A DNA stretch of 5,811 nt from Chloroflexota bacterium (GTDB lineage: Bacteria; Chloroflexota; Anaerolineae; SpSt-600): positions 1-5,811 of the forward strand of contig DRAO01000319.1 in NCBI GenBank assembly GCA_011041825.1, written 5' to 3'. How positions within the stretch are numbered: position 1 is the first letter of the stretch; each line of letters begins with the position of its first letter. A program made the position numbers and the translations under genes. Below are positions 1,292 to 4,052 of this stretch, piece by piece. The notes beneath the pieces were generated by a model. It saw only the letters and a program-made list of their open reading frames with translations, had not been told where the DNA came from and did not search any database.

Positions 1292-2059
1292 ATGGATTAC
1301 GTCATAACGGTGGCTAATCAGAAAGGCGGCGTAGGCAAGACCACTACAGTCATAAACTTGGGAGCCGCCCTGGCCGAAAAGGGCTACAAGGTGCTCCTGG
1401 TAGACCTGGACCCTCAGGGAGCCCTTTCCATAAGTATGGGCATAGAAAGTTATTCCCTAAGCAAAACGATGTACCAGGCCCTCCTGGATTCCAAGGTGTC
1501 CATCGAGGAGATAATAACCCAGGTCAGGGAGAACCTCTTTGTAGCCCCGGCCAACATTGACCTCTCGGCTGCCGAGTTAGAGCTGGTGGCTATGATAGGC
1601 CGGGAATTTGCGCTCAAGGAAGCCCTTTCCCCAGTCGTTGAAAAGTACGAGTTCATCCTGATAGACACCCCTCCAAGCCTCGGGCTTCTGACGGTAAATG
1701 CCCTTACAGCAGCGGATGGCGTGATAATCCCCCTCCAATGTGAATACCTGGCCCTCCGGGCCCTTCGCTTGCTCCTTAACACCATCAACACCATAAAGGC
1801 AAAGCTGAACAGGAACCTTCGCATCCTGGGAATCCTGGCCACTATGTATGATAGCCGCACCTTGCACGCCAAGGAAGTGCTGGATGAAATCCGCTCCGTA
1901 TTTGGCCCTATGGTATTTAAGGTGGTGATAAAGAAAAGCATCCGTTTTGCGGAAGCTCCTGTGGCCAAAAAGCCCATCCTGGAATACGATAAGCGTCACG
2001 AAGGAGCCCAAGCATACAGGGAATTGGCTGAGGAGGTGATAAATGGCACCAAGAGCTAG
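1292..2059 (+). CDS. parA: ParA/Soj-family partition ATPase
   Basis: A 255-residue ATPase of the ParA/Soj/MinD superfamily. The deviant Walker A box is KGGVGKTT at residues 11-18, with signature lysine K11 and P-loop lysine K16. The switch I region is DLDPQG (38-43). Walker B is [13 protein letters not shown] (121-133) with D125. The C-terminal part contains [15 protein letters not shown] and [11 protein letters not shown], matching the typical ParA end. There is no N-terminal helix-turn-helix, so it is the short, chromosomal Soj-like form rather than the long P1-type. Such proteins dimerise on ATP, coat DNA nonspecifically and are released by a partner that stimulates hydrolysis; they position chromosomes, plasmids or protein assemblies. 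No ParB is in the window; instead the next gene overlaps this one by 17 bases and encodes a membrane protein. AAAGGTG at 1278-1284 is a reasonable ribosome binding site. Family assignment is secure; the cargo is unknown. Confidence 0.95.
2031..2040 (+). promoter_or_regulatory. Ribosome binding site inside parA that sets the start of the membrane-protein gene
   Basis: AGGAGGTGAT is a ten-base match to the complement of the usual bacterial 16S rRNA 3' tail. It sits two bases before the ATG at 2043, with six bases between the GGAGG core and the ATG. It lies within the last codons of parA, so the downstream gene is probably translated efficiently and coupled to parA translation. Confidence 0.85.
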
Positions 2060-3032
2060 CATCAAAGGCAAGGGAGTTAAAATCCTCTTTGGGGAAGCGG
2101 AAAAGGCCCTCGCCGAGGAAGCCCTTGCCGCCGAAGCAGAAGCCGGTACAGGGCCTGAAGCCCAACCCGAGGTCGCAGTCGAAGCCCCTCCCGAGGTTGA
2201 AATCAAGGCCCCGCCGGAGATTGCGCCCGAAGCCCCACCAGAGGCAGAGGCCAAACCGGAGGTCCCCAAAGCTCCTCCCGAGGCCCCCAAGGAGGAGAAG
2301 TACGAGGAAATCATCGAACGCATAGGCAAAGGCCGCTTTCGGGACCTCTTCAACGATATCGAGGAGCTCTACAAGCAGGTAACCGAAGAAATCAGCGCTA
2401 GCGAGCAGGTTGAAGAAGCCCTGAGCCTCCTGATGGAAGCTCGCAATACCCTCATAGAGAAGCCAGAGGAGTTTGAAAAGGCGGAATATAACATAAACAA
2501 GGTCAAGGCCCTGCTAAACAGGATTAAAAACTGCCGCACCTGGGGGGCTATATACGGGACCAGGATATTCCTCTATGAGGTAGGATGGTTTGTATTGTTG
2601 CTGGTCCTTATGATTTTTGAAAAGCCCATCGCTTCCCTGCTGGCTCCTATCTGGAAAATCAGCAGCCCTGTCACGGGGATGAGGGAAGTATTCCCTATGT
2701 GGATTACTATGATTTGGGGAGGCATAGGCGGAGTGGTGGGAGCACTATACAGCTTATACTGGCACGTGGCCGTCCGGCAGGATTACAACAAATACTACAA
2801 TATGTACTACGTTGTCCAACCCGTTATGGGCATAATCCTCGGCGGCCTTATCCACCTCATAGTTTCGGCTGGCTTCCTGGCTATGGGAGCCCAGGTGACA
2901 GGTCTTAGTGAAGAGAACATCCAATGGCTCCCTGCCCTCATAGCCTGCCTGGCTGGGTTCCGCCAGAAATTCGCCTACGAGATGCTGGATAAACTTATGG
3001 AAATCCTGGGACGCACCCCTCCTCAATCCTGA
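2043..3032 (+). CDS. ParA-linked multi-pass membrane protein with Pro/Glu-rich arm; candidate ParA partner
   Basis: I do not recognise a named family for this 329-residue protein. Residues 1-18 are basic and contain [11 protein letters not shown], resembling the N-terminal ParA-contacting motif of chromosomal ParB/Spo0J (GKGINALF in Bacillus Spo0J). Residues about 19-85 are Ala, Glu and Pro rich, with EAPPE or KAPPE at 47-51, 55-59, 63-67 and 77-81, likely an extended disordered arm. Residues about 86-165 are charged and helical, possibly coiled coil. Hydrophobic spans lie at about 174-192, 216-240 (with [15 protein letters not shown]) and 257-281, with a shorter one at about 294-306. No cleavable signal peptide is seen, so the arm is probably cytoplasmic. 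No ParB helix-turn-helix domain is present. The gene overlaps parA by 17 bases and starts after an excellent ribosome binding site. I infer a membrane anchor or cargo adaptor for the ParA; the topology and role are unproven. Confidence 0.85.
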
Positions 3033-3996: not shown

Positions 3997-4052
3997 GGGG
4001 AAGCTAATTCTTCGATGGCGACAAAGCCTCCGTCAAAGAAATAGCTTTCCCT
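3996..4052. repeat. Imperfect palindrome, copy 2 (inverted, diverged) of the dispersed intergenic repeat
   Basis: The outer arm 3996-4006 pairs with 4042-4052 (AGGGGAAGCTA with TAGCTTTCCCT, one G-T wobble). The inner arms TTCTT/AAGAA and GATGG/CCGTC continue the stem with single mismatches at 4007/4041 and 4013/4035, up to a loop near ACAAAG. The reverse complement of 4008-4043 matches 1143-1178 at 30 of 36 positions. The element begins at the last base of the mevalonate kinase stop codon. Right after it, CCCTGA (4049-4054) can pair with TCAGGG (4066-4071), sharing four bases with the outer arm, so the two hairpins cannot both form completely. No T-run follows either structure. Confidence 0.75.

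Follow-up and report, generated by a model that had tools for sequence, protein, structure and literature searches.

The window analysed here, a stretch of 5,811 nucleotides taken as a whole, carries, all on its + strand and in this order, a gene end in which LysM-like repeats were recognised by eye and then the genes of a GNAT acetyltransferase, ParA, a membrane protein, a mevalonate kinase and a carboxyltransferase. The parA gene (1292..2059, + strand), called parA2 below, encodes a ParA/Soj-type ATPase of 255 residues (AAA_31, E-value 1.3e-62) with the deviant Walker A motif QKGGVGKT. The membrane-protein gene (2043..3032, +) encodes a predicted multi-span protein of 329 residues with a ParB-like N-terminal tip, and overlaps parA2 by 17 bases, in agreement with the original prediction. 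The annotated start, and hence the N-terminal peptide, is credible because a ribosome-binding-like AGGAGG (2031..2036, +), read from the sequence, lies six bases 5' of the ATG at 2043. The parA2-membrane protein-mevalonate kinase unit is flanked by a hairpin element at 1137-1188 (arms 1142-1160 and 1164-1182, 95% complementary) and its inverted copy at 3998-4049 (77% complementary). As a dispersed repeat, this hairpin element has 74 matches in the source genome when both strands are counted.

The membrane protein had been described as a ParB-like peptide followed by an Ala/Glu/Pro arm, a helical region and three to four membrane spans, without a DNA-binding domain, and each of these parts was recovered. 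The letters given for residues 8-18 agree with the ORF translation, in which the tip KGKGVKILF occupies residues 8-16 (2064..2090, +) and presents the central Arg/Lys and the conserved hydrophobic residues of a ParB-type N-terminal motif. The arm (residues 19-82; 2097..2288, +) is flexible by prediction, with a low-confidence helix reaching residue 32; Ala, Glu and Pro account for 18, 20 and 14 of the 72 residues from 19 to 90, and the arm DNA contains imperfect 24-base repeats at 2160-2244. From residue 83, the AlphaFold2 model shows a helical bundle, predicted to be cytoplasmic (residues 83-170; 2289..2552, +). The membrane domain (residues 172-306; 2556..2960, +) has three clear spans and a weak fourth: hydropathy gives clear hydrophobic stretches at about 175-193, 217-238 and 256-280 and a weaker one near 286-304, where AlphaFold2 places a helix at 290-306. 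Since this fourth span is weak, the cytoplasmic side of the arm is uncertain. The membrane domain also holds two conserved stretches of 14 and 10 residues, and it is followed in the model by a C-terminal helix (residues 308-322; 2964..3008, +) at a conserved GFRQKF. The model, built from 67 homologs, has a mean pLDDT of 82.7 and a pTM of 0.67. Confidence is low for the tip and the arm, long helices cross the membrane region, and block means are at least 88 over residues 91-320, apart from 79 at 281-290.

No Pfam or NCBIfam family scored above its cut-off for the window membrane protein, and neither collection gave a ParB_N/CTPase, HTH or other DNA-binding domain. When the 67 homologs were compared with Pfam at E<=0.01, five families were matched by any member, none of them a ParB_N/CTPase or HTH domain, and no family was common to more than three of the 67. 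The voltage-gated chloride channel family (PF00654) was considered and rejected, with 16.2 bits for a cut-off of 24.8 and three of the 67 members matching at E<=0.01.

A protein search yielded at least 88 family members including the window protein, a lower bound from 7998 scored candidates. Where a name is given it is hypothetical protein, a precomputed Pfam domain is present in none of the 88 listed members, and they belong to Anaerolineae or Chloroflexota wherever the organism is readable. A loose form of the tip lies within the first 70 residues of 54 of them; some of the remaining 34 are incomplete, and others belong to subfamilies whose N-terminus is different. By title, all twenty named genome loci are from Chloroflexota, mostly Anaerolineae, and 13 of them have a parA hit beside the membrane gene. 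The family was matched in 136 of 396 genomes of the window's class, a few of these matches being weak (E near 1e-3: G086, G178). In a phylum-wide draw of 400 genomes, whose class make-up is not given, ten matched, nine of the window's class (its own genome included) and one from outside. Arm length in relatives ranges between a few tens and hundreds of residues, so the tip is conserved while the sequence around it changes quickly. Family f38 has the membrane domain without any tip, and the membrane domain therefore has a role of its own.

Gene context was analysed at 141 loci, corresponding to the best member of each of the 136 genomes (the window for its own genome) and five extra loci. A locus was called linked when a parA frame on the same strand ended between -300 and +600 bases from the start of the membrane frame. 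By this definition parA lies directly upstream of the membrane gene at 54 loci, whereas 74 are not linked and 13 lie at a contig edge. Among members scoring at least 50 bits, a strict tip pattern was found at 38 of the 54 linked loci, 16 of 70 unlinked loci and 5 of 13 contig-edge loci, where shuffled N-termini would give 0.9, 1.6 and 0.3, respectively; the difference between linked and unlinked loci has a Fisher p-value of 2e-7. By eye, a tip is recognizable at 53 of the 54 linked loci: 15 of the 16 that the strict pattern missed have variants such as IGQGIDALF, RGRGRALF or RGRGWEILR (that of L087 lying in a neighbouring frame), and KGLGNDRSFE at L081 was counted as a lost or degenerate tip. 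Most tips, again by eye, contain the central basic residue. The joint conservation of the tip and of the parA neighbour, proposed as a check of the original prediction, thus speaks in its favour.

An independent matrix was built solely from the four distinct ParB N-terminal 9-mers of the window's class and applied to the first 100 residues. It gave a shuffle p-value of at most 0.05 at 30 of the 54 linked loci (2.7 expected) and at most 0.01 at 16 of them; the corresponding numbers for the 74 unlinked loci were 12 and 5. The window protein reached p=0.02. When whole proteins were scored, the best 9-mer fell within the first 60 residues at 26 of the 54 linked loci (7.8 expected). It is often found elsewhere, mostly because membrane spans (e.g. 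MGIILGGLI) also score, and in the window protein the best 9-mer over the whole length is such a membrane-span segment and not the tip.

Several other features of these loci are worth recording. The tip-less f38 members L130, L145 and L167 are located within 5 kb of yidC-like and jag-like genes (names given by eye), and L130 is also near a parA. A yidC-like neighbour is shared by one linked and 26 other loci. A second arm motif, resembling LxxLLxxExxA, occurs in 29 of 74 arms of at least 40 residues, with 1.0 expected from shuffles; it is found in tip-less members too (examples of the motif are P0014 at 34 and P0049 at 39). The gene neighbourhoods of the membrane-protein loci point to no cargo.

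The source genome (2.29 Mb, 84.7% complete) has a single copy of the membrane-protein gene and, on contig C54, an orthodox parA-parB pair. The ParB encoded there begins with MSGRRRGLGKGLEALI, and its ParA shares 49% identity with ParA2. The membrane protein had been proposed to be encoded next to parA in place of ParB, which holds for the locus but not for the genome. Because the orthodox pair is present, parA2 represents a second ParA system that is an addition to ParB and no substitute for it. The canonical parS sequence TGTTTCACGTGAAACA, allowing up to two mismatches, was not found in the 84.7% complete assembly despite the presence of parA-parB.

A tree of 94 ParA sequences, midpoint-rooted and with some long rows, contains a branch (support 93/81) with 11 ParB-linked ParAs, M. 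xanthus ParA and four others on one side, and on the opposite side 56 membrane-linked ParAs together with ten from tandem pairs and 12 further sequences. The 56 come from 52 of the 54 linked loci and four loci of family f43. The genomes of f43 gave no match in the class-wide family search; nevertheless, in four of the five fetched (L217-L220 positive, L221 ending at a contig edge) ParA2-like genes are followed by a divergent tip-bearing member with the tip RRRPVDVLFGEE. The branch separating ParB-linked from membrane-linked ParAs is moderately supported, and the 56 do not form one exclusive clade. ParA2 is thus neither encoded beside parB, which is on C54, nor placed on the side of the ParB-linked ParAs. 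Tandem ParA pairs were seen at L085, L172, L199, L203, L205, L207, L208, L211, L213 and L214. Their first ParA begins, where printed, with MRKIAIVGFKGGIGKTT or close to it, and their second ParAs form one clade (10 of 10 rows, support 100/100). At L085 and L172 (f41), a ParA-like frame and the second tandem-pair ParA directly follow a tip-bearing membrane gene. At L210 (G087) and L223 (G306), a ParA is followed by a small protein whose N-terminus resembles the tip (SVKGKGADLFFGD and RRASLSRNSPLDQLFAP, respectively), the ParA of L210 having an additional HTH-like N-terminal part (by eye).

The site with which such a tip would have to interact is known from M. xanthus. As described in PMC12462528, the ParB hydrophobic residues L11, L15, L18 and I19 sit in a ParA pocket formed by V116, L150, L152, L155, L187 and L192, and ParB R13 is near ParA Y81, E82, D110 and E117; binding occurs largely without this central basic residue, which is required for stimulation of the ATPase. 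We mapped M. xanthus ParA positions through the solved chain 8ray_B, with an offset of 19 checked by its D60A change; judging from this match, the chain is probably M. xanthus ParA. In the alignment the hydrophobic pocket corresponds to L96, L130, L132, V135, T167 and L172 of ParA2, and Y81, E82, D110 and E117 to Y61, Q62, D90 and E97. Tyr61 (1472..1474, +) is the counterpart of Y81, at the site facing the ParB central Arg/Lys; the segment from Asp90 to Glu97 (1559..1582, +) includes the equivalents of D110, V116 and E117, and Leu130, Leu132 and Val135 (1679..1696, +) are those of L150, L152 and L155. ParA2 differs at Q62 (E82) and T167 (L187), and the position of ParB L11 is occupied by K8 in the window tip. 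With KGGVGKT, the DNA-contact residue R218, Y61/D90/E97 and L130/L132/V135/L172, ParA2 has the features of a Soj/ParA protein. The published ParB-peptide pocket is therefore largely kept in ParA2, in line with the ParB-like docking that had been proposed.

All 56 membrane-linked ParAs have L150; 47 retain Y81, 44 retain D110 and 27 retain E117, and at the DNA-contact position R238 an Arg or a Lys is found in 51 of them. Position 187, which is Leu in 10 of 11 ParB-linked ParAs, is Arg, Lys or His in 54 of the 56 (41, 10 and 3, respectively); of the two others, one has Thr (the window) and one Leu. All 16 pairs with an R[PA][VI]D-type tip have Gln at ParA position 117, as do two other pairs. The six pairs of family f10 carry tips such as RGRGRALF, and their ParAs, which lack Y81, D110 and E117, all show Glu at position 81, Gln at position 110 and Pro at position 152 (tips by eye in both cases). 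The type of tip thus tracks residues of the pocket, a pattern that shared ancestry alone could also yield.

The number of ParAs per genome (matches at E<=1e-45) was then compared with the presence of a tip. The five extra loci and seven loci below 80 bits were dropped and six truncated loci were set aside; for unlinked and contig-edge loci the tip status was that of the strict pattern, with L064 and L080 added and L157 removed by eye. No tip is present at 51 of the 129 loci compared. At least two ParAs were found in 42 of 51 linked genomes, in 13 of 21 genomes with a tip but no adjacent parA, and in 3 of 51 genomes with a tip-less member (p=5e-16 for tip versus no tip and p=1e-6 for tip not adjacent versus no tip, related genomes not being independent). 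Fewer than two matches were obtained in 8 of the 21 tip-bearing unlinked genomes, these drafts being incomplete. The same contrast is seen within families. In f15, the tip-bearing G176 and G250 have two and four ParAs, whereas the tip-less G015, G079, G286 and G295, some of which partly resemble a tip (SLKDRGLELLG), have one each; f11 (G047 versus G011) and f13 (G013 versus G049) behave likewise. Each of five linked f31 genomes has two ParAs, while a single one is present in G179, where the tip has decayed to GRGPDTLS, and in G202, where it is gone; the exceptions are G091, tip-less with two ParAs, and G164, tip-bearing with one. The tip thus goes with a second ParA, genomes with tip-less members being mostly single-ParA ones. 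An adaptor is suggested by the position of the gene beside that of the ATPase and by the co-occurrence of the tip with a second ParA. The proposal that this protein is a ParA partner gains from the conservation of tip and parA and from the largely kept pocket; against it stand the homologs without a tip or without an adjacent parA (74 of 141 loci).

We consider it likely that this gene pair encodes a second ParA and a predicted membrane protein whose arm tip docks in the ParB pocket and would stimulate the ATPase, so that a membrane complex would become spaced along the cell. The contact of the tip with ParA is well supported by the comparative evidence, and nucleoid-driven positioning of a membrane complex by the two proteins is plausible. 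The same anatomy, a membrane domain and a ParA2 with the DNA-contact Arg or Lys in 51 of 56 cases, would also suit a static tether holding the nucleoid via DNA-bound ParA2 without any ATPase-driven movement. Such a tether would require neither the deviant Walker A motif, which the window ParA keeps, nor the central basic residue, which serves ATPase stimulation in M. xanthus ParB (PMC12462528) and is present in most tips; both count against this explanation, which we regard as unlikely. Somewhat less probable still is that the membrane protein is merely an activator clearing ParA2 near the membrane, while another ParA2 partner carries the cargo. Two f20 genomes could be read in this way: in G056 and G146 (L201 and L204) the gene after a ParA2-like gene encodes a different protein, which has a single hydrophobic span (by eye) and the tip GRGVDLFF, and the multi-span protein, with its own tip, is encoded elsewhere. 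Four f45 genomes and one f13 genome, in which the tip-bearing membrane gene lies apart from the ParA2-like gene, itself part of a tandem pair elsewhere, could be read likewise. However, it is the multi-span protein itself that is the ParA neighbour at 54 loci.

It could also be argued that the basic tip is no ParA ligand at all but binds nucleic acid, lipid or another protein, with parA as an incidental neighbour. Short basic peptides are indeed common, and the tip persists in 16 of 70 unlinked members. On the other hand, what is conserved goes beyond charge and includes the hydrophobic core of the ParB motif, tip-less members come from mostly single-ParA genomes, and the class of tip follows the pocket (16 of 16 with Gln at 117, all six f10 pairs changed), even if ancestry could explain this last point. 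We therefore give this explanation very little credit. The most likely reading is that the tip binds ParA2 from the membrane and stimulates its ATPase, and that the nucleoid would thereby position a membrane complex.

The membrane protein resembles ParB/Spo0J in that its gene neighbours parA and its tip has hydrophobic residues after a central G-[KR]-G; LGRGVDALF, the reading in some members, may be compared with LG[KR]GL[EG]ALI in ParBs of the same class. Unlike ParB/Spo0J, it matches neither ParB_N nor any other DNA-binding domain, its peptide is carried by a predicted membrane protein, and the paired ParAs group apart from the ParB-linked ones. CpsC (with CpsD), HubP and TipN are membrane partners of ParA-like ATPases, and the protein predicted here would similarly work with such an ATPase from the membrane. 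CpsC, HubP and TipN are not known to carry a ParB-type tip. McdB, PomX and TlpT count among the cargo adaptors of ParA/MinD ATPases. The present adaptor differs from the ParA/MinD cargo adaptors described in PMC10241942 in being a predicted integral membrane protein with a ParB-type peptide. PadC of M. xanthus uses its ParBC domain to bind ParA, which it connects to bactofilins (PMC5703909). PadC is an adaptor recruiting ParA to a structure other than parS, as the present protein would be; PadC acts on the chromosomal ParA, whereas the present system combines a short peptide with a membrane domain and has a dedicated ParA. Among the literature matches listed, none concerned this gene pair or an integral membrane protein bearing a ParB-type peptide. 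According to PMC10241942, many ATPases of the ParA family count as orphans because their partners are too diverse to be recognised. For a second, widespread ParA group, the sequence here reveals the likely partner, a predicted membrane protein.

Tip binding, ATPase stimulation, clustering and positioning are steps that we infer, and they could operate as follows. ParA2-ATP dimers would coat the nucleoid, as expected because the DNA-contact Arg (or Lys) is kept in 51 of the 56 ParA2s. Clusters of the membrane protein, presenting many tips on long arms, would capture these dimers, and the tip would trigger ATP hydrolysis and their release. The resulting local depletion of ParA2 would pull the clusters towards ParA2-rich nucleoid, so that the membrane complex would become spaced along the cell. 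More tentatively, and with somewhat less than even confidence, one may see here a chromosome-segregation engine that Anaerolineae copied and turned to the cell membrane: a dedicated nucleoid-bound ParA would position integral membrane complexes in two dimensions via ParB-type address peptides on long disordered arms, the peptide having been fitted to at least two unrelated bodies, the multi-span one and the single-span one of f20. If the proposed function is true, the tip together with the altered pocket would provide a natural case of a second ParA avoiding cross-talk with ParB, and the nucleoid could pattern the membrane in Anaerolineae.
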